IMG/VR virus record: IMGVR_UViG_3300030106_001896
Span: 1-40,868 of that record
DNA from: a virus
Length of the DNA stretch: 40,868 nt
Strand: one strand, 5' to 3'
This document shows, piece after piece, positions 299 to 40,868 of this stretch (position 1 is its first letter; each line of letters starts with the position of its first letter). A model generated the notes under the pieces. It saw only the letters and a program-made list of their open reading frames with translations, was not told the DNA's origin and did no database searches. The position numbers and the translations under genes were made by a program.

Positions 299-996
299 AG
301 CTCCTGTACACCTACTATCATATCAATGATACTTGGTACAGTGTCAGCCGGGAACAAGCCTTGACAGATGTGTGATAGTAAGCCTGGCTCCTGACTTAGT
401 GTAGGTCTTACTGTCTGATATCTTTCTAGATAATGTACATTCTCCATACATTGGCTAGGTTCAGGCAGTGTGGGGGACAAGGTCCACTTGTCTTGTAGGT
501 AACCAACCACATCATTTAGACTACTACTTCTTTCTTCATACACAAAAGGTAAGAACAAAGACCTAGCTTTCAATGGCTCTGACAAGTTGTCTGTCTCATT
601 CATAGCAGCAATGATTACACTGCCTTTAGGCAATGGTCTACCACGCACAGTACCTTCACGCATCAGAGTCAGGATACTAGCATGCAAGTCATCCCTTGAT
701 TTGTCTAGCTCATCAAAGAAGAAGATGCTAGGTGTATCCGACCACCATGCTGGCTTCAAGTACGTCAAGCTGTTGGTACTATCTAGATACTTAGGGAAAC
801 CCAAGACCTCGTCTTGTGTCTCGTTTTGTAGCAGTATCTTTACTACAGGTAAGTCTAGTGCTTTACTGAGTTCATTCTGAATCCAGTAGGTCTTGCCTGA
901 ACTAGTCTTACCAACTAGCACAGGAACCTTAGAATCCTCAAGCCCAACTTGTTGTTGTAGCTTGAGTGCATCTAGTGCAATCTGTTTACTTATCAT
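1..996 (-). CDS. MoxR-like AAA+ ATPase, N-terminal 332 residues (gene continues at 40570)
   Basis: This is an AAA+ ATPase of the MoxR/dynein-related group, cut by the left window edge; joined to the right end it gives 364 residues ending at 40472. Visible motifs are Walker A GKTSSGKT (residues 29-36), Walker B IFFFDELD (91-98) and a sensor-1 type Asn in AAMNETDN (near 133). The ATG at 996 has an AGGAGG ribosome site and overlaps the end of the upstream 80-residue gene by 11 bases. Downstream lie an unknown protein and a metallopeptidase-VWA protein. MoxR ATPases commonly work with VWA partners to remodel or insert metal cofactors into target proteins, so a chaperone module is likely. The target is unknown. 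The cobalt-chelatase subunit CobS is a related alternative, but nothing specific supports that role. Confidence 0.85.
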   Translation of the reverse strand, partial: MISKQIALDALKLQQQVGLEDSKVPVLVGKTSSGKTYWIQNELSKALDLPVVKILLQNETQDEVLGFPKYLDSTNSLTYLKPAWWSDTPSIFFFDELDKSRDDLHASILTLMREGTVRGRPLPKGSVIIAAMNETDNLSEPLKARSLFLPFVYEERSSSLNDVVGYLQDKWTLSPTLPEPSQCMENVHYLERYQTVRPTLSQEPGLLSHICQGLFPADTVPSIIDMIVGVQELDYAKLLDKEETFNNFVHTQRSVDSAAKHIVEFIKVGKYVSHASMVVKLYEKFASTNADDLVRLYSQVHDIFFDNYPNLSRHEFSTEFVQALGRKLGAVL

Positions 997-1228
997 GTTT
1001 AACCTCCTTTAACATGGCAGCAATAAGGTTAGCAATGCGTAAGCTTTGCCTGTCCTTTCTTCCTGTCTTAATATATTGTAGTGTCTTGGATACATCTGCC
1101 AGGTTCTCTGGCACTTCTAGTTCTTGAAGTCTGTCTTCCATCCAGTCATTGAATGTTTCTGGCTGTTCAGTACTTTCTTCTGTAGTATCAGAACTATTAG
1201 TATCCGTAGTATTATCTGAGTTACTCAT
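986..1228 (-). CDS. Small acidic protein of unknown function (80 aa)
   Basis: I do not recognise this family. Residues 1-25 are rich in Ser, Thr, Asp and Glu and are probably disordered. The rest is helical and charged, ending in a basic tail. The start has a clear GGGAGG ribosome site. Its stop overlaps the start of the AAA+ ATPase by 11 bases, so the two are probably translationally coupled and this protein may act with the ATPase module. It lies just downstream of an intrinsic terminator, so it would be expressed by read-through or from its own promoter, which I cannot identify convincingly. Confidence 0.75.
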   Translation of the reverse strand: MSNSDNTTDTNSSDTTEESTEQPETFNDWMEDRLQELEVPENLADVSKTLQYIKTGRKDRQSLRIANLIAAMLKEVKHDK

Positions 1229-20276: not shown

Positions 20277-22688
20277 ATGGCAAGACCAAGAATGGATATA
20301 AGAAAATTTGGAGACATACTTAGACCTGTAGTAGGTGGACAGAGTAATCAAGTTGAAATGTCTGATATGAATGTAGAAGCACCTCAAGCTGAAATTCCGT
20401 ATAGTAGAGCAGCTGCTGCTTTTAGTGGAACTAAAGCAGGTGATAGAATTGAAGCTGCTAACATGTCATCAGGTCAATTTGAGAGCAAAGCAACTACTGC
20501 TGATGACTATGCTTACAGAGATGCAAATACAGGAGAAGTTATTGATATATCTGGTTTGGTAGACAAAGATGATAATCCTTTAGAAGCTTACATTCCAAAT
20601 GCTACAGCTAGTGCTGACCAATTAAGAACTAACAATCAAGTAAAAGTTGTTAACCAGTATGGAGATGAATTAAACGCATACTATGTAGATGTTCAAGCTA
20701 AAGATGCAGAAACTGGGCAAACTATTAACTTACAGAAAAAAATGTATAGAAACGTAGATGAATTCTACGGAGATGAAAATGCATTAAAAGAAGCAGGATA
20801 CTCAACTTTAAAAAGAAACTACATGAAGTTTGGTTTTAATGAAAGAGATGCACAAAAACTAGTTGACCAAGCAAAACTTATGCAGAATGACAAAACTAAA
20901 ACTTTTAACAAAGGATTGTCTAACTTTCAAATAAAAAGACTACAAGCAGAAGCTTTAAATAAAGCTTTTGAATGGCAAGGAGAAAATGATAATCAAACAC
21001 TAAGATTAAAAACTTCAGACCCTGTAAGTGAATTAAAAAGATTAACAACTGAAGCTGATGAAAGATTAGGTAAGTTTACTTTTAAAGATAATAATGGTGT
21101 TACAAAAAATGGTATGGATTTCTTAAATCTAGAAGTTAGATATGGTACACATTTATTTGTACAGAATTTAAAAGATGTTCATTTAACTAATTTAACTGAA
21201 GGAAAAGTTTCTACTAAAATGGAAGAAGCAAAAGAACAGTTCCGTAAAAAAAATCCAGATAAAATAATAGAAGGTAACAAAGGTTTTGAAATACTTACAG
21301 GAGCTCTTACTACACAAGAAGATTCAGAAATGAAAAATAGTGCAGATGTTACTGGTATAACTTCTACTAAAAATAATGTTTTAGTGTTACATACTTTTAA
21401 CAAAGTTGATGCACAAGAAATAATTGATACAAAGAATGGTGAAGCTGCTACTAAATTACTTATAGATGCAGGTTTTATAGACCCTACTAGATTAGCATAT
21501 GACAATGAATCTGAAAAACAAGCTATTGATGCAGGCTCTATAGAATTATTAAAAACAATTAATGAAAGTGTAGACGAACTAAGAGAAGCAGTAGAAGTTA
21601 CTTTAGAACCAGGTCAATATAGTCAAGTGCTAGAAGAATATAACACATGGTACACTGCTAATTCAAGAATTTTAAGAGATGAAGAAAGAAAAGTAGATAA
21701 TATACTAGGTAATTTTAATGCAGAAAATTCTAATTATTTTAATAAATTAAATAGAATGGACCAACAAGGTAAATTTTTTAATGCAGATTATGATGATAGT
21801 TTTACTGGTAAAATATACAATAATCCTCAAGAGATGATAAACGAACTTGATAAAAAATACAGTACTAATCCTATTGAATATCTAGCCCAAGTAAAAAGTT
21901 TGCAAGATGCAGGGGTTATTACAACTGAAGCAGCTGCTATGTTGGGCACAAGAGCTAGGTATTTAGAAGTAAGACTAGGAGCTACTATACCTGAAATTAA
22001 AAAACTAAGAGATAGATTAGGATTAAAATCCAGAATAGAAGTACCTGAAGATGTAGAAGTTGAAAATCAAACTGGACTAAAATTTAAAGGACAAACTTAT
22101 GCTGTAAATACATCTTTCAATAAAGATACTGGTAAGTATGAACCATATGCACTTGCAGGTGAGGCTAATCCTAAGTTTGCTGATAGGCTTAATTTTGGTA
22201 TGAGTGCAAATAAAGTTTATGTAAATCATCAAGATGTACTAGATGATAAATTTCCTGGAGAAGCTAAACTAAAATTTGCTGAAATAATTATAAACAGAGC
22301 TAATGGTAATGAAGATGACATAGCTTTTATTAAGAAAAATTTTAATTTAGATGATGAACAATATAACTCTTTAGGACTTAAAGACATGACACCTGCAGAA
22401 CTTGTAGAGATTCTAGATGAAGCTAGAGATAATGTAAACAATACTAAATCATTGGGCAAAACTGTTCAAAAAGGTATTACAAGCTTAGTAGAAGAAGCTA
22501 AAGAAACTATTAAAGACCCTACTGGACTTAGAAGAGCTTTTCGTGCAGGTAGAGATGTTATTAAAAAAGGACTAGAAGAAAGAGCAAGAGTTAAAGAAGA
22601 AACAGGTAAACCACCTACACTTCCAAGAACACAACCCGGTGGTGGTATAGATTACATGAGAGAATTATTTAAACGTAGGAGTAACTAA
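20277..22688 (+). CDS. Internal virion protein 2, large helical protein (803 aa)
   Basis: The protein is charged and largely helical throughout, with no signal peptide, no membrane segment and no hydrolase motif that I recognise. A basic start (MARPRMDIRKFGD) leads to an acidic and Asn-rich body; the C-terminus is basic and Pro-rich (KEETGKPPTLPRTQPGGG). It lies between internal protein 1 and the giant protein with minimal spacing, so it probably belongs to the same ejected core. AGGAG precedes the start (GGAGATAAAA). Confidence 0.65.
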   Translation: MARPRMDIRKFGDILRPVVGGQSNQVEMSDMNVEAPQAEIPYSRAAAAFSGTKAGDRIEAANMSSGQFESKATTADDYAYRDANTGEVIDISGLVDKDDNPLEAYIPNATASADQLRTNNQVKVVNQYGDELNAYYVDVQAKDAETGQTINLQKKMYRNVDEFYGDENALKEAGYSTLKRNYMKFGFNERDAQKLVDQAKLMQNDKTKTFNKGLSNFQIKRLQAEALNKAFEWQGENDNQTLRLKTSDPVSELKRLTTEADERLGKFTFKDNNGVTKNGMDFLNLEVRYGTHLFVQNLKDVHLTNLTEGKVSTKMEEAKEQFRKKNPDKIIEGNKGFEILTGALTTQEDSEMKNSADVTGITSTKNNVLVLHTFNKVDAQEIIDTKNGEAATKLLIDAGFIDPTRLAYDNESEKQAIDAGSIELLKTINESVDELREAVEVTLEPGQYSQVLEEYNTWYTANSRILRDEERKVDNILGNFNAENSNYFNKLNRMDQQGKFFNADYDDSFTGKIYNNPQEMINELDKKYSTNPIEYLAQVKSLQDAGVITTEAAAMLGTRARYLEVRLGATIPEIKKLRDRLGLKSRIEVPEDVEVENQTGLKFKGQTYAVNTSFNKDTGKYEPYALAGEANPKFADRLNFGMSANKVYVNHQDVLDDKFPGEAKLKFAEIIINRANGNEDDIAFIKKNFNLDDEQYNSLGLKDMTPAELVEILDEARDNVNNTKSLGKTVQKGITSLVEEAKETIKDPTGLRRAFRAGRDVIKKGLEERARVKEETGKPPTLPRTQPGGGIDYMRELFKRRSN

Positions 22689-25600
22689 TGGCTGATACAA
22701 AAGTAGAAATTGTAGAAAAAGAAGAAGAAGAAGAAAACGAATTTGATATAAACGAGTTTTTAGCTCCAGAAAATAAAAGAATGTTTACAACTAAGGACTA
22801 CATAAATGTAGCTCCTGGTTTTAATCCTACTGACTATTTTATATCTGCTAATTATAAACCTATTGATTTTGCACAAACTAATGCTGAGATAGCTAACAAT
22901 CCAGGAGGAGCATTTTTGCATGGATTAACTTTACACCATGCAGGAGAAAAACCAGATTCTTATGCATCTCTAGACGGGTTAAGTTACTTAGCAGGTTCTC
23001 TTATACCTTTGTTAACTATAAACCGTGTATCTGCAGGTACTTCTAGAAGTTTAGTAGGTAGACTTGGATTTGCTGATGATGCATACATGGTAGGTGAGGG
23101 AGGCAAACTAGTGCCTAGAGTTGGTGGTATGTCTAAATTATCTGCTAATAAGTCTCAACCTTACAAGTTACAAATGGAAGGACCTTTTACTAAAGTACAA
23201 GATACAATGAGAGGAGCTCCTGCTATTAGAAAAATTATGGCTAACAAAGCTAAGTTAGACCATGGTATTAGAATTGCAATGGAAGCTGGATTGTGGAATT
23301 TATCTGATGCTGAACTAGGAGGATTGTCAGGATATCAAGATGCTTTATTATATACAAGTATTGGAGAAGGTCTTGCAGCAGGTATATCTAGAGTAGCAGG
23401 TAGAGTTAAAAATAAACTAAGAACTAAAGGAAACAATGCTAATACTAAAGTAAAAGTAGATGAAACTAAAGCAGATGATTATGATGTAACTCAAGCAGCT
23501 AAGCAAGCTGATGAAGCCATAGATGCAGAACCTACTATACCTGAAGGCGTAGGACCAAAAGAAAAACAATTTGCCATAGAAAAAATACAAGAATTAAAAA
23601 CAGTTATAACTAAATTTAGAAATTTAGAAAATGCTTCTATTAAAAACACTGAAGGTTTTATAGAAGCTATAATGAGATTAACACCTAAAGAATTAGAAGG
23701 TAAAATATTTTATGATGCTGCAGGAAAAAAAGGACACAAAGTATTAAAAGATGGAGCACTAGAAACAGTAGAAAGATATGAAGAAGCTCTTAGAGTAGCT
23801 CAAGAAGTAGAAGGTTTTATAAAACCAGAAACTAAGTCACAAGATAAAGATTTAATACAAAAAGCCACTGATATAGTTGAAGGTATAAAACTTTTAACTC
23901 AAGGAAAATCAGAAGAGTTAATAGCAAAATTTGGTAAAAATTTTAAGAGAAAATTAAAAAGAAATAAAAAAGTTCAAGATGTAATTAAAGAAGAATCTAG
24001 TTTTAGTGATGAAGAATTAACTAACATGGCTATAGTTGAAGATACTATAGAAGCAGCAGAAAAACAATTAAAGCTAGACTTGGGTATGGACACAGTAGAA
24101 ATAACTAATCCTTATTTTGAATTTAATCCTAAGTATATAGCAGAAGATGTAAAAGAAATTAAACTAACAAAAAGTCCATCTTTTAAAATAAGAGCTAAAA
24201 CACCCAAGATAAAAACTGACAGCTTAGGGTTAACTACATATTCACCTGCAGTAATGAGTATGGAAACTAGAATAGGAGCTACAGCAGGTAGACCAGATAT
24301 ACCTTATATTAAACAATTTTACTCTGCACCAAAAGTCTCTGATAAACCTGGTAGTTATTATAATTTCTTAGAACAAGAAATGCGTCAATCAAGTGTACCT
24401 GTTAGAACTAGAGCATATGAAACTATAAAAGATTTACAAGAAGCTACTACTGCAATAGATGTTGGTATGTATAAAAACCCAAAAATAGACTATACTAACC
24501 AGCCAACAATCACAAAAAGAGATGGAACTACGGTTGCACTACCAATTACAGAAGGCGGACAAGTTGTATTAAAGCCAAAAAAACCAACTACTTTAAAACT
24601 ACCAGATAAAAGCACTTTAAGAACAGTTAATACAGATTTAATTACTGGATTATCTACTATACAAAAAATAATAGGTGACGTAAACAAAAGCCCTAGACCA
24701 AAAGAAATACCTGTTACTATAATAAGAAGTTTAGAAACTGCTATATCATTAGCTAATGAAACTATATTATCTAGAATGAATCCTGTAGTAGCTAGACGTG
24801 CATTAGCTTTAAAAGAAATTATACCTGTTAGAAATTATAACAACTTATTAACTAGATTAATTAACTCATTAGAATTACCTAAACCTAAACCAACAAAAAC
24901 AGCACAACAATTAAAATTAGAATATTTACTAAGTGGAGGAAAGGTAAAAAAAGTTCCTTCTAAAAATGTAGAACTAGATGCAAACGCTGAGTTTGCAGAA
25001 CATTTAAAAATACAACAACAGAAAATAGCTAAATTTAAATCTACATTTACAGATAAAAAAATTGTGGATTATGTTAAAAAGAATAATCCTAAAATGTCAG
25101 ATAAAGATATTACAATAGCAGCAGCTGAATTAAAAGAACAGATATATACAGCAGAATATAAAGCACTTACAGATTCAGATAGATATATTAAAATGTATGA
25201 AAAGAATTATTCACCAGATGCTTACTATGATACAACTCCTGAAGTTGGTTCTGACATAATCAAAGAAGAAGCAGACGCATTGTTTGCACGTCAAGCAGAT
25301 GAAAGTATTGATACAGGAGAAATAGTTGACCCTTTAAGTGGAGAGAAAATACTTTCTAAAGAAGTGCTTGATACTGAGCCAGATGGATTACCTAGAATTG
25401 TAGGTTTTTATGATGAATTAGTATCAGGTATAAAAGACCCACAATTCCAACTAGATGATAAAATAAATTTAATAGTATCAACACGTCCTAGTAAAATAAC
25501 AAAAGTAAATAAACTTTTACCACCTGCTAAAGCAACTGGTATACCTTTAGCTGGTAGAATAACTCCTATGAAGTTATCTAATCCTGCACATGCAGCTGCA

Positions 25601-28600
25601 GACCAATTAGAGTATATGTTAAATGTAGAATATAATGGTATACCTTTTGTTAATCTAAAAGAAGCTAATGAATACTTGTTGCCTAAAGTAAAAGAACTAG
25701 TACCTAAAGCAAACATAACCAAAGATGGTATTGCATATGGTAAAAATAAATTATTAGTTATAAAAGAATTAACTGACAGAGAACTGTTAGATAATCCAGG
25801 AACTGTTAAGTATGTATTGTTAGATTCAAATACTAACGTATCTGATTATCTAGCTTATGTTAATAAAAAGAATGCACTTAAAATTAAGAAAGCAAATCCA
25901 AAACAAAGACAAATAGATGCAGAAAAAACAGAAGTTCCTGGAACTAATATAGAAAACATATCTAGTGGTAAACAACTTAAAAGGTCTACTGGTGGTAAAG
26001 AAATAGATAATTTAACTTATATTGATAGTAGAGTAGGTAAACTATTAGATGAAACAGTAGATGCAGATACATGGATGAAAGCAGACCAGAACTTTAAATT
26101 AAACAATGTACCTCTTACTTACAATTTTGTAGACCAATTAGCTACTACTATGCAGAATGCTATAGAAATGCACAAAGTAGGTAATTTACAGACAAGAGAT
26201 TTAATGGAAATAATAGAAGTAGCTTTAGAAAAACGAGGTATAAATCCTAAAAACTTACCTAAAGATGTAGACTATCCTAATATAGCTAGACGTAAACTAG
26301 ATGAGTTGACTGCAAATATAGAAAAAGCAGGGGAAGCAAATAAAATGGGAGTCTCTGCTACTAATCCTATTGATATAATTAAAATGAAAAAACTAATGAA
26401 AGACTATGCTGATAACATGGATGATATAACTGGTAGAAATGCAGCTGAAATGTCTGCATTAGTAGACGAAGCTAGTGAGATTATAAAACAATTAAAAGAT
26501 AATGGGTATGTAAATAGTGGTTTAATGAAACTAGATGAGCTTGCAACTATAGCAGACTTCTTAAAAACACAAGCTAATTTTGTAGGAGATGCTAATGTAG
26601 ACTTGTTTGTAAAACAAATAGAGGATTCTTTTAGAGATGAGTATATTAGGTCTGCTCAAATGTTTATAACAAAAGAATATGGACAATTAAAAAATTATTT
26701 TGTTGCTGATACACACAAAGGTGGTAGTAAAATGCAAATGCAAATGAGAACTCAAGATGCTTCAGATTGGGGAGACACAGTAACTGAATATTTTCAAGCT
26801 GGAAAAGAATTAAAGAATGATTTTGGTACTGATTTTGAATCTTTAACAAAAACTATTAGACAAAACCCAGCTCAAAGAGAGTTTATTAAAGATAAAATGT
26901 TAGATTTTATAACAGATAATCCTGAGTTACTAGAAAACTGGGATGTAGGTATGGGGTTTCGTCCTGGTACACAGATTGTAAAGAATGCAGAAGGAGTAAG
27001 AACTGGTACAAGAGAAGTATCACAATTACCTTTAATGGGACAACAAGCTCCTGGGCAAGCTGGACTTAAATTTCAAGAAAGATACAAACAAATGAAATTA
27101 GGAAACTATGCTACAGGTATGAATGAGCGTACAACTACAGGAGCTATATTTAGAGACTGGATGCAACTTATGTCAGATAATCCTCATATATGGGAATCTT
27201 TTGTAGACAGACACATGTTAAGAGGTAAAGCTATAGACAAACTTTATTGGTTAAATAGGTATGCATCAGGAGATGATAAAGCTAAACACTATATACTAGA
27301 CACTATTGATAATGAACCTATTATAAATAACATGAGAATAAATCATTTAAATTTTATATATAATAATCCAAGAAGTCATTACAAAGATGGTAATGATTTT
27401 GTAAATGCAGGTGCAGTGGATGAAGGCATAAATAGTCCTATAGATGATGCAGGAACTCCTCCTCCCCCATCAGGAGGAGGCTACTATAGCACTGTAGATA
27501 CACCTGCTGAATCTATAAAAATTCCTTACATTGGTAAACATTTTTATAAAGACCCAGCACGTATATTTAAAAAAGCTTATCAAGTTATAGGTGACATTGG
27601 GTTTATAGATATTATAGATACAGCTAGAAATTATGTAAACAGAATGGCTGTAGTTCCTAAAGAATTTTTTGATTGGATGTCTCAATCTAGATTAAATAAA
27701 AGTATAACAGCTTGGCAGAAAAAATATCCTGATAGAAACTGGGCTGAGGAAGAAGTAAAGATAATAAATACTTTAAGAGACATAGATTATGAATTAGAAC
27801 AATTAAGAGTAGGTAAAGATGGTAGTAGATATAGACTTAGAAGCCAAGAAGAATCTATGAGAAAAAGAGGGTTAACTGAAGAAGAAATAACTAGAGGTTT
27901 AGATGCTCAGATACAAATTATAAAATATAAAGAACAACAAAAATTAAATACTTTATTATCCACTAAATTAACTAGACCTGAAAGTAGAGAAATAGCAGAG
28001 GCTTTCTATGAAGGCACAAGACAAATTAGAGATACTAGATACAATGACTTGCTTACCCCTGATTTAGAACTTGCATTAAGAAACGCTGGTATAGCAGAAG
28101 AAAATATGCCTAAAAGAATAGGAGATTTAGTAGGTTATTTCCCTAGAATAGCTGATGGTAGTTTTAAAATTAAGTTACAAAAAGGTAACAAGTATTTTGA
28201 TATAGGAACTTCTAATACTTCAAATAAAGAAACAGTGCAAAAAGAACTTATAAGATTTTTAAATAATGAACACAATGCAAAACTTTTAGAAAAACCTGAT
28301 GATTATTTTATACACATAATACCAACAGGTAGAAACTTAAGTGAAATATCTGATACAGCTATGGCAAATGCTGTAGATAAAAGTTACAAATATCAATTAG
28401 GAGATGTAAAAAGATATTTGTTTGGTAAAGAAAAACTTACAGCAGGAGATAACATAGTTGATTTTCTAGCAAGAGCAGCTAAACATAGAGGAGATGGACC
28501 AATGCAAGTAACTCCTTATAAATCATTAGAAGAGTTACTGTCTAGTTATTGGTACAATAATAGTAAAGCCTCTTTAACTTTACCTTTAACAGCCAAAATA

Positions 28601-30358
28601 AAAACAGTACAAGGAAAGTTAAATAAAGATGTACAAAGAGATTTGTACAATTACATGACTGACTATCACAATATGTTAATAGGTAAAAAAGGACCTGTAG
28701 AACAAAACATAGATAAGGTAGTTAACAACTTAATGGATTATGCTTATAAAATTCCTGTTGTTAAAAACAGATTAGAATCATTAGGTATATACGAAGGTAG
28801 TGGTAACCTTAGAACTTTAAGTAATTTAATACAAAGAACATCTTCTTTTGTAGCTTTAGGTGCTAACGTAGCTACAGCTTTACTGCAATATACCATTGTA
28901 GGACTTAACGTATTACCAAGATTAGCTTTAGATAGTAACAGTGGTAAAATATTAATGAAAGCTTGGAAACATGCTGGTGGTATTATGAACAAAACTAGCC
29001 CATACAACAAAGCTTATGAAAGAGCTAACCTAGAAATATTTAAACAAGATGGTGCAGTTCAAGATATTCTTAATGCTGGTGGTATTAGAAAAGCTGGACC
29101 TACACGTCAAGCTTTTAGAAAATTAAATGATTGGGCTATGTGGTTATTCCAAGATTCTGATACAAGGTCTAGAATGTTTACTCTTGTAGTAGGTGTAGAG
29201 AATGGTAAAAATATTCTAAAAGGTCTTAAAAGAAAACTTGTTAACCGTAAAGAAGTTATAACTAATGCTAATTATAAAAAATATTTAACTCAAGATGAAC
29301 AACTCATGTGGTTAAGAAGTAAAGCTAATAACACAAATTTAAAATCAAAAGTAACATCACCAGAAATAAAAAAATTAATAGATGATTATGCTGTAGATTT
29401 TATGGAGCAAACAAACCATACATATAACTCATTTAATAACCCATTAGCTTTTAGTAATCCTGTTACTAAACCATTTTTACAATTTAAAACATGGGTACAA
29501 AAAGAGATTACATTTTTTATAGATGCATTTAGAGAAGTACCTAGTTACTCTGGTGTGCCTATGGCAGAGAGGTATGGAAATGCAGCTAAGATAGTAGCTG
29601 CTTTCACAACACTTGGAGGTATATTCTCTTTACCTGGTGCTCAAGAACTAGACATGGCTACTAGATGGGCATTTGGTGTGTCTCCTAAAGCATGGATGTA
29701 CGAACAAGATTCTCCATTACATGATGTATTAGCAGGTGGGTTCTTTACTTTAGGTGGTGTCAGCATGGAAGGAAGAACAGGACCTGGTAACTTATTTACT
29801 GTAATAGATACAGATAACTTGCTTGGTATATATCCTGCAAGATTAGCCAAGGCAGCCATGGCATTTAGAGATGGTAGAACAGATGCTGCATTAAACTTTG
29901 CATTACCTAGATTTGTACAAAATTTAAAACAAGGTTATGATATGGCTACTACAGGACAACTAAGAAATACTTATAATGGTGGACTAACATTTAATGTAGA
30001 TGAAATGAGTGGTAATTCTGCTCTTAATATAATATATAAACTTGCAGGTTTTCAATCTATGGATGAAGCAAGATATCAAACTCTTAAGTTTGCTATGTTA
30101 GATGCTTCTAAATCTAGAGGTAGAGATAGAAGATGGATATACAATACTATATTTGATTATCTAGATGAAGGAGATACAAACAGAGCTAAAGCTTTTGCAA
30201 GAGAATCAGACGTTGAATTTGATAAAGTATTAAAAGAGTATAAGAAAAAGAATCAACCAGACTATACTCATAAAACTTATCCATACTTTGACAAAGAAGA
30301 TGAAGTGGATAAAGTTATGGGACCACTATTTAATCCTAAAGAAAGGAGGCTCAGATGA
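22688..30358 (+). CDS. Giant internal virion / polyvalent-type protein (2556 aa)
   Basis: This single gene takes up 19% of the genome. The N-terminus is acidic (EIVEKEEEEENEFD). A Pro/Gly linker (GTPPPPSGGG) is near residue 1588. C-terminal hydrophobic stretches (about 2053-2085: GANVATALLQYTIVGLNVL; about 2300-2320: AKIVAAFTTLGGIFSLPG) could insert in membrane. FSNPVTKPFLQFKTWVQKE (about 2255) resembles the terminal region of large polyvalent phage proteins (the PLxRFG type). The middle is helical and charged. I see no lytic transglycosylase or other enzyme motif, though a peptidoglycan-degrading module may be too diverged to spot. Likely ejected with DNA. It overlaps the previous gene by one base and the next by 4. 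Confidence 0.75.
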   Translation: MADTKVEIVEKEEEEENEFDINEFLAPENKRMFTTKDYINVAPGFNPTDYFISANYKPIDFAQTNAEIANNPGGAFLHGLTLHHAGEKPDSYASLDGLSYLAGSLIPLLTINRVSAGTSRSLVGRLGFADDAYMVGEGGKLVPRVGGMSKLSANKSQPYKLQMEGPFTKVQDTMRGAPAIRKIMANKAKLDHGIRIAMEAGLWNLSDAELGGLSGYQDALLYTSIGEGLAAGISRVAGRVKNKLRTKGNNANTKVKVDETKADDYDVTQAAKQADEAIDAEPTIPEGVGPKEKQFAIEKIQELKTVITKFRNLENASIKNTEGFIEAIMRLTPKELEGKIFYDAAGKKGHKVLKDGALETVERYEEALRVAQEVEGFIKPETKSQDKDLIQKATDIVEGIKLLTQGKSEELIAKFGKNFKRKLKRNKKVQDVIKEESSFSDEELTNMAIVEDTIEAAEKQLKLDLGMDTVEITNPYFEFNPKYIAEDVKEIKLTKSPSFKIRAKTPKIKTDSLGLTTYSPAVMSMETRIGATAGRPDIPYIKQFYSAPKVSDKPGSYYNFLEQEMRQSSVPVRTRAYETIKDLQEATTAIDVGMYKNPKIDYTNQPTITKRDGTTVALPITEGGQVVLKPKKPTTLKLPDKSTLRTVNTDLITGLSTIQKIIGDVNKSPRPKEIPVTIIRSLETAISLANETILSRMNPVVARRALALKEIIPVRNYNNLLTRLINSLELPKPKPTKTAQQLKLEYLLSGGKVKKVPSKNVELDANAEFAEHLKIQQQKIAKFKSTFTDKKIVDYVKKNNPKMSDKDITIAAAELKEQIYTAEYKALTDSDRYIKMYEKNYSPDAYYDTTPEVGSDIIKEEADALFARQADESIDTGEIVDPLSGEKILSKEVLDTEPDGLPRIVGFYDELVSGIKDPQFQLDDKINLIVSTRPSKITKVNKLLPPAKATGIPLAGRITPMKLSNPAHAAADQLEYMLNVEYNGIPFVNLKEANEYLLPKVKELVPKANITKDGIAYGKNKLLVIKELTDRELLDNPGTVKYVLLDSNTNVSDYLAYVNKKNALKIKKANPKQRQIDAEKTEVPGTNIENISSGKQLKRSTGGKEIDNLTYIDSRVGKLLDETVDADTWMKADQNFKLNNVPLTYNFVDQLATTMQNAIEMHKVGNLQTRDLMEIIEVALEKRGINPKNLPKDVDYPNIARRKLDELTANIEKAGEANKMGVSATNPIDIIKMKKLMKDYADNMDDITGRNAAEMSALVDEASEIIKQLKDNGYVNSGLMKLDELATIADFLKTQANFVGDANVDLFVKQIEDSFRDEYIRSAQMFITKEYGQLKNYFVADTHKGGSKMQMQMRTQDASDWGDTVTEYFQAGKELKNDFGTDFESLTKTIRQNPAQREFIKDKMLDFITDNPELLENWDVGMGFRPGTQIVKNAEGVRTGTREVSQLPLMGQQAPGQAGLKFQERYKQMKLGNYATGMNERTTTGAIFRDWMQLMSDNPHIWESFVDRHMLRGKAIDKLYWLNRYASGDDKAKHYILDTIDNEPIINNMRINHLNFIYNNPRSHYKDGNDFVNAGAVDEGINSPIDDAGTPPPPSGGGYYSTVDTPAESIKIPYIGKHFYKDPARIFKKAYQVIGDIGFIDIIDTARNYVNRMAVVPKEFFDWMSQSRLNKSITAWQKKYPDRNWAEEEVKIINTLRDIDYELEQLRVGKDGSRYRLRSQEESMRKRGLTEEEITRGLDAQIQIIKYKEQQKLNTLLSTKLTRPESREIAEAFYEGTRQIRDTRYNDLLTPDLELALRNAGIAEENMPKRIGDLVGYFPRIADGSFKIKLQKGNKYFDIGTSNTSNKETVQKELIRFLNNEHNAKLLEKPDDYFIHIIPTGRNLSEISDTAMANAVDKSYKYQLGDVKRYLFGKEKLTAGDNIVDFLARAAKHRGDGPMQVTPYKSLEELLSSYWYNNSKASLTLPLTAKIKTVQGKLNKDVQRDLYNYMTDYHNMLIGKKGPVEQNIDKVVNNLMDYAYKIPVVKNRLESLGIYEGSGNLRTLSNLIQRTSSFVALGANVATALLQYTIVGLNVLPRLALDSNSGKILMKAWKHAGGIMNKTSPYNKAYERANLEIFKQDGAVQDILNAGGIRKAGPTRQAFRKLNDWAMWLFQDSDTRSRMFTLVVGVENGKNILKGLKRKLVNRKEVITNANYKKYLTQDEQLMWLRSKANNTNLKSKVTSPEIKKLIDDYAVDFMEQTNHTYNSFNNPLAFSNPVTKPFLQFKTWVQKEITFFIDAFREVPSYSGVPMAERYGNAAKIVAAFTTLGGIFSLPGAQELDMATRWAFGVSPKAWMYEQDSPLHDVLAGGFFTLGGVSMEGRTGPGNLFTVIDTDNLLGIYPARLAKAAMAFRDGRTDAALNFALPRFVQNLKQGYDMATTGQLRNTYNGGLTFNVDEMSGNSALNIIYKLAGFQSMDEARYQTLKFAMLDASKSRGRDRRWIYNTIFDYLDEGDTNRAKAFARESDVEFDKVLKEYKKKNQPDYTHKTYPYFDKEDEVDKVMGPLFNPKERRLR

Positions 30359-33399: not shown

Positions 33400-35577
33400 C
33401 TAATTCCAGTTAGGTCCGTGTTCTTTAATGTCTAAAGGTAAGTCTAACATAACACCTGACTTATTTACATCAGGTATTTGTGTATTTATCTGACCTATTA
33501 GTTCATACACTAACTCTAATTCTGGTTTATATACATCTATTTCCATGGCATCATGAAACTCTAGCCATAGTCTTGATATACACTTGTGCTTCTTTAACAA
33601 GTCATACATTTCAAGTATACGTAACTTGTTTAGGTCTGCACTAAATGACTGAATTGGGAAATTAACTACTTGTGTAGGGTTCATTCTATCTCCAATCCTC
33701 CCATATACACTAGTATTATAACCTATTTTCTTTGTTAATGTCAACAACTTTTTTTGATAATCTGCAATACCTATCTTAGACATAACATCTAAATAAGTTG
33801 CAACAGTTGTCTTTGCTTTACTTCTAGATAGTCCAGCTTTGACTAGCTCACTTGAGAGTCTATGCTCTGTAGCCCCGTATACATATGCAAAGTTCAATAT
33901 CTTAGCATTCTTACGGGTAATGTTAGCCAGTTCTGAAGTCAGGCTATGCATATCACTACCCTTAGTGTAAGCCTCTATAAGATATTTACTACCACTCAAG
34001 TAAGCCAGACATCTAAGTTCTGATTGGCTAGCATCCACGGTTAGAAGAGTTCCTTCCTCTTCAAATATAGATTTGAAACATGGTCGAACACCAGGAGGAA
34101 TGTTTTGCATGTTAGGATTGGTACTTGTCATTCTACCCGTGGTTGTGGATGCTAGTTGTAAGTTGCAATGTAGTCTTCCTGATTTACTTACAAGCTCAGG
34201 AATCTTAGTAGTATAAGTAGTATTTAACTTACTATACTTTCTATATTGTAATATATTTTGAGCAAACTCATGATTAATACCTTTGAGTATAGTTTCTCCT
34301 GTACCATCTACTTCATAGCCTAACTCTAGTAATTTATCCTTTACTTGTGCAGGACTACTAGGATTAATATCATAATCTTTATTTATCTTTGTTAGTATTT
34401 CATCTAAATGTTTATTATTATGTTTAGTATATTCTTTTAGTTTAGGCATATCTACTTTAATACCTTGATGTATCATTTGAGATACAGGTAATACCATTGA
34501 CATATCTATATCTCTAGCTGGTTGCATGATATCCCAGAACTGTGAGTAGTCTTCTTTAAACATGTAATACAATCTTAAACCAGCATACGCATCTCCTGCA
34601 CAGTAGTCTTGTAACTTCTTTGTTGTCTGTGCAAAGTCTTCTATGGTGATATGCTTTGCATAGTCTACTAAGTGGAGGTAGTTATGTGCAAAAAACTTTA
34701 GACCACCTACAGGTAGATGCGAAGCTAGCTGTCTCTTAAGTATAAGTGTATCCATGAACTGACATTCTATTTGGTCAGGTCCTACTATCTTTAGTAATCT
34801 TATTACATCAGCAACTATGTTATGACCTACTACTGTAAGGTCTTTATTTTTACATACTTGTTCACGTAATAACTTACGTACTTCTACAGACATTTGTACA
34901 GCTGCACACTTGGAACTACTGCTTACTCCTACAGTATGAGTAATATCTGTTTCTATATTCCATTCAAAGTCTAGTCCAATATATCCTTCTTCTAAAGCTT
35001 CTGCTAGTACCTCTTCAAAGGATGGGTGTAGGGGTATCTCTTCTAGTTCATCACGGCATTCAGCTCCAGCTCTGCTGTAAGCTTCAATGATAGTTCTATC
35101 CAGTGCTTTATCTTTAAGTTGTTTTGGATGTATGCTTGATTCATACTCTTGGTCTATCTCTTTACATGCCATTCTTGCTAGCTCTCCCATAGCTACAACT
35201 TTGTCAGGTTTAATTTCATCTATCTCTTGCTGTAGTAAACTACTACACCAACGTACTTCATGTGTCTTAACTTCATAATCTTTTGGATAACATTTAACTG
35301 GACATGTAATCCATACTTCACAGTCTATTAAGTATTGCGTCATGTATTTCTTGACTGTGCTGCCACTTGAGTCTCCCCCAAGCTGCTTACGCATGTCTTC
35401 TGCTTGAGACGGTGTACCTAAAATTATAAGTATCCTACCACGCTGTCCATCTTGCAGCTTAACACGTAACAACTTAGGGGAAGAAGCATGTTCAAATAAT
35501 CCACACCTTAGACAATTGTCATCAAGGTTTAGGGGTTTGTACTTCTTCCGTCTTTCTGTGTAGGTTCTCGTTAGCAT
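33400..35577 (-). CDS. DNA polymerase A with N-terminal uracil-glycosylase-like domain (725 aa)
   Basis: Residues 1-190 resemble Fe-S uracil-DNA glycosylases: Cys22, Cys25, Cys96 and Cys111 and the HPS motif (184-186) are present, but the canonical GEAPG is GTPSQ (54-58), so activity may be lost. Then comes a 3'-5' exonuclease with DFE (203-205), NIVAD (253-257) and YCAGD (325-329). The polymerase has motif A DASQSE (515-520), motif B RKNAKILNFAYVYG (555-568) and motif C HD (675-676). It is the replicative enzyme. SPO1 polymerase carries a comparable N-terminal domain. Good GGAGG site; the start lies inside the previous gene (56-base overlap). Confidence 0.93.
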   Translation of the reverse strand: MLTRTYTERRKKYKPLNLDDNCLRCGLFEHASSPKLLRVKLQDGQRGRILIILGTPSQAEDMRKQLGGDSSGSTVKKYMTQYLIDCEVWITCPVKCYPKDYEVKTHEVRWCSSLLQQEIDEIKPDKVVAMGELARMACKEIDQEYESSIHPKQLKDKALDRTIIEAYSRAGAECRDELEEIPLHPSFEEVLAEALEEGYIGLDFEWNIETDITHTVGVSSSSKCAAVQMSVEVRKLLREQVCKNKDLTVVGHNIVADVIRLLKIVGPDQIECQFMDTLILKRQLASHLPVGGLKFFAHNYLHLVDYAKHITIEDFAQTTKKLQDYCAGDAYAGLRLYYMFKEDYSQFWDIMQPARDIDMSMVLPVSQMIHQGIKVDMPKLKEYTKHNNKHLDEILTKINKDYDINPSSPAQVKDKLLELGYEVDGTGETILKGINHEFAQNILQYRKYSKLNTTYTTKIPELVSKSGRLHCNLQLASTTTGRMTSTNPNMQNIPPGVRPCFKSIFEEEGTLLTVDASQSELRCLAYLSGSKYLIEAYTKGSDMHSLTSELANITRKNAKILNFAYVYGATEHRLSSELVKAGLSRSKAKTTVATYLDVMSKIGIADYQKKLLTLTKKIGYNTSVYGRIGDRMNPTQVVNFPIQSFSADLNKLRILEMYDLLKKHKCISRLWLEFHDAMEIDVYKPELELVYELIGQINTQIPDVNKSGVMLDLPLDIKEHGPNWN

Positions 35578-36996: not shown

Positions 36997-37268
36997 GATT
37001 TATGCTCCTTTTGTCTTTGAAAATATGTTTTACTACTAGTTTGATGCTCGTATTCTGAGACAGCTTCATCATACTCTTGCACTTTTTCTTGTGCTTTTTG
37101 TTCGCATGTTTCTTTAATAGCTTGTCCTAGTTTATCTAGCTTCAGTGTCAATACCCCTTCGCTGGTAGTTCGCCCGTCAAGGGCGACTACACAGCTTTGT
37201 GGTATTTCCACTTCTTCTATGAGTATCTTACCTTTAGTATATATTTTAAATTTAAATGTATCACTCAT
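36993..37268 (-). CDS. Small protein of unknown function (91 aa)
   Basis: An N-terminal beta-like half (FKFKIYTKGKILIEEVEI) is followed by a charged helix (about 50-85, EQKAQEKVQEYDEAVSEYEH). I start at the ATG at 37268, with GGAGG seven bases upstream; the frame extends to 37298 inside the helicase gene. It overlaps the helicase stop by 8 bases. No family is recognised. Confidence 0.7.
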   Translation of the reverse strand: MSDTFKFKIYTKGKILIEEVEIPQSCVVALDGRTTSEGVLTLKLDKLGQAIKETCEQKAQEKVQEYDEAVSEYEHQTSSKTYFQRQKEHKS

Positions 37269-38334
37269 TGTCTTCCTCCGTATATTCTTCATAGTCATAT
37301 GTTAACTGATTGAAATCAAAGTTAATTAGAAACTCTTGCAATGCTGGATGTCTCCTAGCTTTGATAGTAGTTATGTTCCTGTATCCTGTGTTGATGTCTC
37401 CACCTACACCTAATACTAGGTCAGCATGTGATATGATACCAGCCTTAGCTTCTAGTAGATTATCTGCACTAGGAAATGGGTCATCCTTGTTTAGTTGATG
37501 AGCTGTTATAATAATAACATTCTTATCTTGAGATATACGTTTTAGTTCTGACGTAATATTCTCTAGCTCATGCCTTCTTGCATCAGCTTTCTTCAAAGAT
37601 GACATAACACCTAGATAATCTAAGAACACTATGTCTGGTTTGATTGTATCAATCTCCATTTCTAATTGTGTGGTAGTAAACTCAGAATAACAACATGCAT
37701 AGAAGTCAGGAAACTCTTGCACTGCAAGTAATCTTTTACGTAACATAGTTTCACTGAAGTCTTTGATAGATATGTATAATGTTTTGAGTTTATTTATACA
37801 AGCTTCACGTACAAATGATAGCATGATGCTGGTCTTACCACGTCCAGTAAATGCACATATCACAGCAAGTTCTTCTTTGGTTAGTCCATAATGAAACAAA
37901 TAGAACAAGTCATTAGTTTCTGTCATCTCCATATCAGAAAACAATTTAGATTTACTTGCACCATATTGTATTGTGTTAGTAGATACACTAGATATCTTAG
38001 ATAACTTATCATCTAATGGTTCATCAGATTGTATGATGTTAGATATCTTATGAATCTTATTGTTTGTTAACAGAGTATTGATAGCTCTGTATCCAGTTAC
38101 ATTACTGACTGTCTCTTCCATGTCTTTAAAGAACATGTATTCATCAGCACTAAGTACATCCTTGACTATGCTTAAGAAGTCTGTCTTAGTTAAAGATTCT
38201 TTTTCTTTCTTTAACTCTTCCCATAACATATCATATGGATATTCAAGATAAACAGATTGTAACATAGGAACCATTTGGTCTCTCTTACTTTTGTTTAACA
38301 GAAATGTAAATAGATTTAGGTAGGTATTCTCCAC
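37261..38334 (-). CDS. DnaB-like replicative helicase, GTG start (357 aa)
   Basis: The RecA-like core starts near residue 135. Walker A is AFTGRGKTS (161-169; the first Gly of the usual motif is Ala), Walker B is DIVFLDY (234-240), and a later IITAHQLNK contains the motif-3 Gln. The N-terminal 130 residues are helical and would contact the primase. It unwinds DNA at the fork. The start is GTG at 38334, with GGAGG seven bases before it. A sigma-70-like promoter lies just upstream, so helicase, small proteins, primase and polymerase probably form one operon. Confidence 0.88.
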   Translation of the reverse strand: MENTYLNLFTFLLNKSKRDQMVPMLQSVYLEYPYDMLWEELKKEKESLTKTDFLSIVKDVLSADEYMFFKDMEETVSNVTGYRAINTLLTNNKIHKISNIIQSDEPLDDKLSKISSVSTNTIQYGASKSKLFSDMEMTETNDLFYLFHYGLTKEELAVICAFTGRGKTSIMLSFVREACINKLKTLYISIKDFSETMLRKRLLAVQEFPDFYACCYSEFTTTQLEMEIDTIKPDIVFLDYLGVMSSLKKADARRHELENITSELKRISQDKNVIIITAHQLNKDDPFPSADNLLEAKAGIISHADLVLGVGGDINTGYRNITTIKARRHPALQEFLINFDFNQLTYDYEEYTEEDNE

Positions 38335-38357: not shown

Positions 38358-38387
38358 AGTATACTATTATTGACTTATAAAAGTCAA
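38358..38387 (-). promoter_or_regulatory. Candidate promoter/operator for the replication operon
   Basis: On the minus strand TTGACT (38387-38382) and TATACT (38363-38358) are separated by 18 bases. A perfect 9-bp dyad (TATTGACTT...AAGTCAATA) covers the -35 hexamer, so a repressor or activator could act there. TTGACTTTTA is shared with the plus-arm promoter candidate at 2503. The -35 overlaps the stop of the upstream VWA gene. Confidence 0.6.
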
Positions 38388-39577
38388 TAAATAGTTATAA
38401 CATGTGCATGTTTTTCTATGATACGTTTATTCCAATCCGTTGTCAAGAGAAACACAGGTTTATTGTGAAATTTCTTAGTCATCTCTAGACTACTTTTGAT
38501 ATCATATAAACCACCATCTGTATACACAACAACGTGGTCTTCTGGACTAGCATAATCAAATACAGGTTTGATTGTTGTGCCTCCATAGAATCTACGTATT
38601 GCTTCTTCTATTTCTTTGGTTTGATTTACATCAAATATTGTAGATATTTCTGTATCAAACAGAAGCACTTTATGTCTACCTTTTGTTAGGTGTTGACTAA
38701 TAACTCTGACAATTATGTCAATGTCTTTTCTATCCATACTACCAGAACAATCTATAGCAAACAAGAACCTACTCTTTGAATTAGAATAGGCTCTACCTTT
38801 TTGTATGATACTAGGATGTATTGGATTGTGTGGCTCACGTCTGTATGAACTTACCCTTTCAGAATTATTGTAGTTATGTATAACTTGTAGAAACTTTTGT
38901 AACCATTTAGGTTTAGCTATAGGTTTCTTGAATAGATAATCATAGTCTACATCAGTCACACCTGAATTAGTACCAGCAGATTGTAATGTATTACCTGGTA
39001 TATGTACACCTTCAGCCTGTGCTTTTCTTATGTTAGAAGAGATAGAATCTTTGATGATTTGACTATCTAAGTCTGCGTCTTTATTAGGTTTTATTTTCCA
39101 GAAACTATCATTTAGGTTTTCTTCTACCCACTTATTGAACTTATCCATCTTCTCTTGAGCTGCCTCCCACAGCTTGTGGTATAAGAACTCAGGGGGTAGT
39201 ACTCTTAGATTACAAGACTCATAGGTACATGGTTTACCTGCATGCTCTTCAAGTATTTGTGGATTAGCAGTGTTGACATGTATGCTGCAATCTGCTACAA
39301 TATTAAAGAGCTTACGTTGGGCTACTGTCTTGCCTTTCATAAAGCCAATATGCCCAAACATACCATGAGCTAGTTCATGTTTGATTAGTTCTATCTTGAA
39401 ATCATTAGGCTTGTGTAACCAGTCTGATGAGATAAAGATATTCAATCTACCATGTTCTGCATAACAGTACGCTGAGTTTGTAGTCTTAGTATCAGTATGA
39501 AAATTAATATCAGGCACTTGATACATTAGCCATTTATCATTGTCAAATGATACAAATTCATGTATGTTAATCAACAT
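38384..39577 (-). CDS. Metallopeptidase-like plus VWA domain protein (397 aa)
   Basis: The N-terminal half resembles the DUF2201 metallopeptidase-type domain, with HELAHGMFGH (residues 67-76) as probable zinc ligands and catalytic Glu. The C-terminal half is a VWA domain with complete metal site: DCSGSM (276-281), GGTT (332-335) and TDGG (353-356). In bacteria such proteins pair with MoxR ATPases, as here. Start ATG overlaps the previous stop by one base (TAATG) and has AAGGAGG. Acting on a virion or host target is inference. Confidence 0.85.
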   Translation of the reverse strand: MLINIHEFVSFDNDKWLMYQVPDINFHTDTKTTNSAYCYAEHGRLNIFISSDWLHKPNDFKIELIKHELAHGMFGHIGFMKGKTVAQRKLFNIVADCSIHVNTANPQILEEHAGKPCTYESCNLRVLPPEFLYHKLWEAAQEKMDKFNKWVEENLNDSFWKIKPNKDADLDSQIIKDSISSNIRKAQAEGVHIPGNTLQSAGTNSGVTDVDYDYLFKKPIAKPKWLQKFLQVIHNYNNSERVSSYRREPHNPIHPSIIQKGRAYSNSKSRFLFAIDCSGSMDRKDIDIIVRVISQHLTKGRHKVLLFDTEISTIFDVNQTKEIEEAIRRFYGGTTIKPVFDYASPEDHVVVYTDGGLYDIKSSLEMTKKFHNKPVFLLTTDWNKRIIEKHAHVITIY

Positions 39578-40518
39578 TATCTTGTCCTCCTTAGAGACAT
39601 GGACCTACGTTTACGCCACGTAGATATACCTTTGGGTCTCTTGTATGTAGATTTTTGTGGTGGTGTAAAGATATGCATTGACTGTTCATTGTCCCAGTCT
39701 GTATTGGGTACAAACCAAACAAACTCTTTCTTACGTCTGAACGCATCAAACAAGCACAAGTCATGGTCATATCTTGATTTCAAAACATTCATTATGTTTT
39801 GTTCTGACCAGGCAACATCATTCTTTAGGCTAGTATGTTTCAGTTGTTCTGGAAACAATAGCTTAGTTTCTTCACAGTACATAAGATAGGTATCGTTGCA
39901 AAGCTTACCATCTTGTCTGGATATATACACGACTGACATCTGCATGTCTGTATACCCTTCAACACCAGAGATATTGTGAGGCACATGTAGGTAATTATGA
40001 TACGGACGATTACCTGTGCGTGTATTATCCATTAGCTTCATACCAACAACACACTGTACATCATCAGATTGTATTGTTTCTGGTTTGAAATAGACTCTCC
40101 AACGGTAATACCTGTCACCATACTTACTCTCATACCAAAGAACAGCTTCCCTGGTAGGTGTCCAGCGTGGGACATCTTCTTGTGTACTGTATACACCTGA
40201 CTTGATACGCTTGAAGAGGGTTTCTTTACGGTTATGCAGTCTTTCTTTCTTTCGTTTTTCTATCTCATCACCGTAGTGTACATCATCAATGTTACCACTA
40301 CTCACTGCACCCTCATGGAAATCTTCTACGTCTTCATAAGCTCCTGAATGATGAGTGTTTAGTCTATCTCTTTGTATAACAGACAGTGGCTTAGTCATAG
40401 GTTGGTTGTATCTTTTGTAACTATTTAGTGTATGACCTAGATACTTTGCATCTCTGTTACCTGGAAGCTGACTATAATTCAGAATCTTGTAGTGTGGATT
40501 CGCTCTGCGAGTTAGCAT
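39577..40518 (-). CDS. Unknown protein between AAA+ ATPase and VWA protein (313 aa)
   Basis: No family is recognised. The N-terminal third is basic and polar; the middle (about 120-260) has aromatic and beta-like sequence (YYRWRVYFKPETIQ, VQCVVGMKLMDN, MSVVYISRQDGKL); the C-terminus is very basic (STWRKRRSMSLRRT). I start at 40518, with GGGAGG nine bases upstream; a longer frame to 40548 exists. The start lies inside the end of the ATPase gene (47-base overlap), and its stop overlaps the VWA start. It may be the third subunit of the module or its substrate adaptor. Confidence 0.8.
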   Translation of the reverse strand: MLTRRANPHYKILNYSQLPGNRDAKYLGHTLNSYKRYNQPMTKPLSVIQRDRLNTHHSGAYEDVEDFHEGAVSSGNIDDVHYGDEIEKRKKERLHNRKETLFKRIKSGVYSTQEDVPRWTPTREAVLWYESKYGDRYYRWRVYFKPETIQSDDVQCVVGMKLMDNTRTGNRPYHNYLHVPHNISGVEGYTDMQMSVVYISRQDGKLCNDTYLMYCEETKLLFPEQLKHTSLKNDVAWSEQNIMNVLKSRYDHDLCLFDAFRRKKEFVWFVPNTDWDNEQSMHIFTPPQKSTYKRPKGISTWRKRRSMSLRRTR

Positions 40519-40868
40519 CTTCAACCTCCCAACTGTATGCCAGGTCATCTACTGCACTTGTATATCCACCAAGTACAGCACCCAGCTTTCTACCTAGAGC
40601 TTGTACAAACTCTGTACTGAACTCATGTCTTGATAAGTTAGGATAGTTGTCAAAGAATATGTCATGAACTTGACTGTAAAGTCTGACAAGGTCATCAGCA
40701 TTTGTTGATGCAAACTTTTCATACAACTTAACAACCATGCTAGCATGACTAACATACTTACCTACTTTAATAAACTCAACAATGTGCTTGGCTGCACTGT
40801 CTACACTACGCTGAGTATGTACAAAGTTGTTAAAGGTTTCTTCTTTGTCCAGAAGCTTAGCATAGTCT
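40472..40868 (-). CDS. MoxR-like AAA+ ATPase, C-terminal part (same gene as at 1-996)
   Basis: The frame is open from the right window edge and ends at 40472. The last 33 codons (40472-40570) complete the ATPase that begins at 996; the remainder repeats its C-terminal region (residues about 233-331) because of the terminal repeat. The end of the protein is acidic and Ser-rich (VEDANSQSESTLQDSEL). The next gene starts within it. Confidence 0.85.
   Translation of the reverse strand, partial: DYAKLLDKEETFNNFVHTQRSVDSAAKHIVEFIKVGKYVSHASMVVKLYEKFASTNADDLVRLYSQVHDIFFDNYPNLSRHEFSTEFVQALGRKLGAVLGGYTSAVDDLAYSWEVEDANSQSESTLQDSEL
40571..40868. repeat. Terminal direct repeat, right copy
   Basis: This is the second copy of positions 1-298; 296 of 298 bases agree. 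Differences are at 40583 and 40619. Confidence 0.9.

Follow-up and report, generated by a model that had tools for sequence, protein, structure and literature searches.

The closest described relatives of the locus reported here are the gp24 and gp25 genes of N4-type phages (Schitoviridae), which encode an ATPase (PHROG 1297) and a protein that joins a DUF2201_N zincin to a DUF2201 VWA domain (PHROG 1314). N4-like phages have 14 core genes, of which these are two; in N4 they are transcribed as middle transcripts (PMC4193335), and they belong to the core across very different hosts (PMC7650795). In jumbo phages a vWA domain fused to an N-terminal metallopeptidase likewise adjoins a MoxR ATPase (AR9 g028/g029), and MoxR and vWA have been described there as a chaperone pair (Iyer et al. 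2021; PMC7824862). Further viral pairs are p618/p892 of the archaeal virus ATV, a MoxR and VWA pair of tail development whose interaction has been shown experimentally, and the adjacent AAA and vWA genes of the 45-kb halovirus Hardycor1 (PMC7911831). NorQ/NorD, RavA/ViaA and CbbQ/CbbO also combine a MoxR-class ATPase with a MIDAS-bearing VWA protein, and they supply a mechanistic model: in NorQD, a finger in the pore and a C-terminal contact link the MoxR ring to the VWA protein, and target binding falls to the MIDAS (PMC9976466, PMC13036017). The literature that we found establishes no function for the gp24/gp25 pair in bacteriophages, and a genome-scale knock-down paper includes no N4-like phage.

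The window, that is, the whole stretch of DNA that we analyzed, comprises 40,868 nucleotides (IMG/VR record IMGVR_UViG_3300030106_001896). Its ends (1-298 and 40571-40868) overlap by 298 bp, so that, with the overlap counted once, it is the genome of an uncultured phage, a circle of about 40,570 bp (40.6 kb). The two copies of the overlap differ at positions 13 and 49 of the window, which reflects either strain variants mixed in the record or errors there; the MoxR protein is the same from either copy. Terminase, portal, capsid and tail-region genes lie on the plus strand, and the module described here lies with the replication genes on the minus strand. Among the virion genes, 22688-30358 encodes a 2,556-aa protein that matches no Pfam family and a PHROG only weakly; it diverges strongly even among module-bearing relatives. 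The features of the module and its flanks are as follows.

986-1228, minus strand: 80-aa gene with a GGAGG site, the first visible gene of the transcription block; orphan and fast-evolving, 40% identical in L001
1-996, minus strand: MoxR-like AAA+ ATPase, residues 1-332 of 364; Pfam AAA_5 and AAA, PHROG 1297; GGAGG before the ATG at 996
889-912, minus strand: Walker A, GKTSSGKT, MoxR residues 29-36; invariant in 5 homologues
709-723, minus strand: Walker B, FFFDE, MoxR residues 92-96; invariant in 5 homologues
40472-40570, minus strand: the C-terminal 32 codons of MoxR and the stop, next to the terminal overlap (40571-40868 repeats 1-298)
39577-40518, minus strand: X, a 313-aa orphan protein with a GGAGG site; homologues in the same phage clade only
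38384-39577, minus strand: 397-aa protein with a zincin (HExxH) and a VWA (MIDAS) domain; PHROG 1314, gp25-type profile match, VWA fold
39365-39379, minus strand: zinc-binding motif HELAH, VWA-protein residues 67-71; HExxH invariant in the gp25-type alignment
38738-38752, minus strand: MIDAS DxSxS (DCSGS), residues 276-280; positions invariant in the family and gp25-type alignments
38576-38578 and 38516-38518, minus strand: the other MIDAS residues, T334 and D354; likewise invariant
37261-38334, minus strand: DnaB-like helicase, 49 nt downstream of the VWA gene, where the replication genes start; Pfam DnaB_C at 3e-14, PHROG 19 at 2e-30

The MoxR gene crosses the junction of the circle (996 to 1, then 40570 to 40472) and reads through 364 codons without an internal stop. 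Successive genes overlap by 11 nt (80-aa gene and MoxR start), 47 nt (MoxR and X) and 1 nt (X and VWA gene), and a GGAGG ribosome site precedes every one of the four starts. An alternative upstream ATG would give a 323-aa X; we favor the 313-aa start at 40518 because GGAGG is found only there. The initial annotation had described an overlapping minus-strand operon of MoxR, an unknown protein and a metallopeptidase-VWA protein with intact MIDAS and HELAH motifs, and the overlaps, ribosome sites, family matches, VWA fold and motif residues bear this out. Its size estimate (about 3.4 kb, 8% of the genome) was of the right order and slightly high: the module measures 3.18 kb, or 7.8% of about 40.57 kb. 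Sensor 1 of the ATPase is N133, and a further motif of the VWA protein, NIVAD, occupies residues 92-96. Every full-length homologue that we found in the phage family preserves the HExxH, Walker and MIDAS residues. In the most distant VWA homologue (L026, 1991-3187) the MIDAS reads DCSWS instead of DCSGS, with the metal-ligand residues retained.

Profile searches and structure prediction, both proposed as checks in the initial annotation, place the ATPase and the VWA protein and leave X with neither a family nor a usable model. The MoxR protein scores above the cut-off for both Pfam AAA_5 and AAA and matches PHROG 1297 (‘ATPase’); its profile aligns with gp24-type proteins (98.2%) over the AAA+ core only, the C-terminal 200 residues remaining unaligned. 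The VWA protein is sub-threshold in Pfam, where the DUF2201_N model falls short of significance, and it matches PHROG 1314 over residues 42-360 at 1e-23. With this protein as query, tblastn recovers the LUZ7 ‘N4 gp25-like protein’ and the AR9 ‘zincin-like protease fused to vWA domain’. Compared profile to profile with 12 gp25-type proteins of phages, the VWA protein aligns over 349 columns (99.7%), and the HExxH, the N..xD motif downstream of it and the MIDAS positions fall in register. The window thus holds an ATPase with the expected motifs and profile and a zincin-VWA partner, both encoded on one strand and the partner similar in length to that of N4, and these sequence features make the two genes a divergent version of the N4 gp24/gp25 module (23-25% identity). 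The predicted VWA domain matches, by Foldseek, solved VWA domains, with the NorQD complex lower in the list, and phage VWA proteins, and this model confirms that the protein carries a VWA fold; the model is usable for the C-terminal VWA domain only (pLDDT mostly 60-80), the zincin half being largely of low confidence. The putative zincin fold is supported by sequence only. PDB sequence searches with MoxR, the VWA protein and X returned nothing useful.

Proteins of the gp25 type are labeled ‘HNH endonuclease’ in PHROGs, as the name of PHROG 1314, and in many RefSeq phage records (N4 gp25 and LUZ7, for example). Pfam detects no HNH domain in the window protein or in the LUZ7, N4 and AR9 members, and in the latter three it finds the DUF2201_N metallopeptidase and the DUF2201 VWA domain. 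This widespread label is wrong.

Protein X is basic (pI 9.4), with a conserved C-terminal half and a strongly basic stretch of 28 residues at its end. X and its homologues match no Pfam family up to an E-value of 5, no PHROG and no PADLOC family, and no collection that we searched holds a relative of X outside its phage clade. Few proteins of the genome evolve as fast: X is 55% identical in the nearest complete relative (G001), where the helicase reaches 92% and the major capsid protein 96%, and the most distant copy is recognizable only in the C-terminal half (31%). A structure prediction from four homologues reached a pLDDT of 34. A PDB sequence match to thioredoxin f2 (E 0.006) was judged to be chance. 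LUZ7 and PEV2 also carry one gene between gp24 and gp25, and we considered this small gene as a homologue of X; the two are unrelated (hhalign probability 0.3%). N4 and EcP1, unlike the window, have no gene between the pair. In the comparison with G001, dN/dS is 0.19 for MoxR, 0.33 for the VWA protein and 0.18 for X, the last a rough value as synonymous changes approach saturation. The module is under purifying selection, and from the dN/dS and identity figures X is therefore a real, constrained and fast-evolving protein.

Among phages at large the pair is well represented. Searches by tblastn with LUZ7 gp25 and with a second phage zincin-VWA protein matched 623 and 792 of 50,697 phage records, among them N4-like, jumbo and rV5-like phages and Roseobacter phage CRP-7. 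In the neighborhoods that we read, a MoxR-type or gp24-like gene adjoins the VWA gene or lies within a few kb of it, in the rV5-like phage naam on the opposite strand. Genomes of N4-type phages measure 58-79 kb, and the smallest apparently complete genomes among the matches listed are of 58-59 kb (CRP-7, EcP1). An unannotated 40,166-bp PEV32 record also matches and is probably partial, judging from its 72-kb relatives. For a bacteriophage that carries an ATPase and zincin-VWA pair, 40.6 kb is a small genome. The initial annotation had called such a set unusual in a 40-kb phage; this holds for the small genome and for X, and not for the pair, which is the gp24/gp25 pair of hundreds of records. 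In Synechococcus phage MinM2 (L045, 1722-6179) a DUF3150 gene and small ORFs lie between MoxR and a VWA-like gene, so that other phages also have different third genes in the module. In Pseudoalteromonas phage pYD6-A (L050) the gp24-like and DNA polymerase genes are each annotated as two joined pieces that enclose an ORF, a layout suggestive of self-splicing introns, or of inteins, that carry inserted genes.

No close relative of the window phage is found among cultured phages, the best terminase matches being below 30% identity over less than half of the protein; IMG/VR holds 22 loci with related terminases. The survey of relatives, likewise proposed in the initial annotation, found the order MoxR-X-VWA followed by the helicase intact in G001 (a complete genome of 42.5 kb whose terminal repeat is exact), as well as in G005 and one half of G002, and MoxR alone at the contig ends of other records, including G007. 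The helicase region is visible in the second half of G002 and in G003, G004 and G006, where small unrelated ORFs replace the module; in this module-minus clade about a dozen of them lie between the helicase and the small terminase (L025, 731-6000, which is G004; L019, L024, L027). Searches of the whole records of G003, G004 and G006 with MoxR, VWA and N4-type gp24 profiles found none, the positive control being that the N4-type gp24 profile recovers MoxR in G007. The G004 genome (40,583 bp) is probably complete, because its ends are repeated and the helicase gene is split across them. G002 (IMGVR_UViG_3300030060_002972; L062-L066) is an 83.7-kb contig of two related phage genomes of about 41 kb in tandem, with the module in one only. 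The final 25 nt of the contig are found again at 42735, and a tail-region gene homologous to g15775 is present in each half, equally identical to that of the window, which suggests a chimera assembled across a shared stretch, or recent recombination.

Trees of the large terminase subunit (TerL), major capsid protein, portal, helicase, PolA and exonuclease all split module-plus from module-minus phages. The module is a clade trait, with a sister clade that is without it, and the trees are most simply explained by one gain or one loss followed by vertical descent. None of the bacterial genome contigs searched encodes a close MoxR relative. The same split in all six trees led us to drop the idea that the module goes with the replication genes in preference to the virion genes.

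The reading that we favor, and to which we attach about even confidence, is that the three genes encode an ATP-driven protein-remodeling machine that acts with the early or replication genes on a host or phage complex, not on the finished capsid. The MoxR protein would form an AAA+ ring, with the VWA protein as its dedicated partner. By analogy with NorQ/NorD, the C-terminal VWA domain may dock on this ring, and its MIDAS metal may grip an acidic site on the target. The N-terminal zincin, which sets the window protein apart from the VWA proteins of NorQ/NorD, RavA/ViaA and CbbQ/CbbO, could be a protease acting on the remodeled target or a metal-dependent binding module. A role in cofactor insertion, as for NorQD, CoxDE and CbbQO, has no candidate target gene, be it for a metalloenzyme, respiration or carbon fixation, in the vicinity; the module is flanked by the 80-aa orphan and replication genes. 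More tentatively, X might be a phage-specific third subunit, either a lineage-specific target-recognition adaptor or a dedicated substrate itself, of a three-part and possibly proteolytic AAA+ machine of the replication phase, unlike the described ternary MoxR/vWA systems. Of the three roles offered by the initial annotation, remodeling a complex is best supported, assembly of virion proteins is weakened, and countering defense lacks direct support.

Several lines of evidence point to the early phase of infection. The module shares its strand and block with genes for the DnaB-like helicase, a CHC2/Toprim primase, a family-A DNA polymerase and a Cas4-type exonuclease, opposite the virion genes; N4-like phages, too, have the pair close to genes for a helicase and a family-A DNA polymerase. 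The helicase beside gp25 in LUZ7 belongs to SF1 and that of the window is of the DnaB type, so this adjacency is analogous and not homologous. The window polymerase (33400-35577) has a UDG-like N-terminal domain fused to its exonuclease and polymerase domains (Pfam UDG at 22.8 bits, slightly below the cut-off). The PEV2 gene between the pair is annotated as ‘transcribed in early infection (RNA-Seq data)’, an early promoter immediately precedes the ATPase gene of AR9, and mass spectrometry of LIT1 virions found no product from the corresponding region, gp33-35 being absent (PMC3715699). Module-minus G004 shares 82-96% identity with the window in capsid and head-connector genes and 75% in the terminase. 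An early-phase intracellular target is favored because of the timing in relatives, the LIT1 virions, the position in the replication block and this capsid-sharing relative. Against it, the presence of the module goes with the clade in all gene trees and so does not single out replication, and a MoxR-like ATPase has been reported to be virion-associated in a staphylococcal jumbo phage (PMC10638138).

The same evidence bears on the proposal, rather unlikely in our estimate, that the module is a virion-assembly chaperone with proteolytic processing, which folds, assembles or cleaves virion proteins. This is what Iyer et al. proposed for the jumbo-phage pair by analogy with ATV (PMC7824862), where p618 is found in the virion and interacts with p892 and with tail proteins (PMC4124505). 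The portal and the large internal or tail proteins also differ between the window and its module-minus relatives, the 2,556-aa protein strongly, and an assembly role for these proteins is conceivable. The proposal is nevertheless weakened by the replication-block position opposite the virion genes, by the early or middle timing in relatives, by the LIT1 virions, and by the nearly unchanged capsid and connector genes of module-minus phages. The ATV VWA protein is, moreover, reported to be without a peptidase domain (PMC7824862). As to other differences from the window, ATV is an unrelated type of virus, and the jumbo-phage pairs are without X and sit in genomes of about 250 kb and more.

Alternatively, the machine could disassemble or degrade a host defense or regulatory complex, with X providing specificity. 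The rapid divergence of X is what would be expected of a host-facing protein, and the wider family as a whole can do without the module. We nonetheless consider such a take-over or counter-defense role improbable: there is no match beyond chance to known defense or counter-defense families, the core status of gp24/gp25 in N4-like phages of very different hosts fits a basic better than an accessory function, and moderate divergence under purifying selection is no proof of conflict. A phage-captured MoxR-vWA ternary conflict system (of the VMAP, iSTAND, FtsH or beta-propeller classes) would share the three-gene operon with a MoxR/vWA core (PMC7159879). It is a very remote prospect, as X shows no similarity to VMAP, STAND or FtsH (Pfam to an E-value of 5, PADLOC), no effector domain is recognizable in X or in the VWA protein beyond its zincin, and the pair finds its closest homologues among the core genes of phages.

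In summary, the ATPase and zincin-VWA pair itself is a known phage module; the new elements are the compact bacteriophage genome, the orphan third gene, and the clean contrast of presence and absence within one phage family. N4-like phages share gp24/gp25 as core genes, hundreds of other phages have the pair as well, and this family offers a compact 40-kb setting in which to study it. Moreover, it provides a natural comparison between two clades whose head genes are mostly shared and of which only one has the module.
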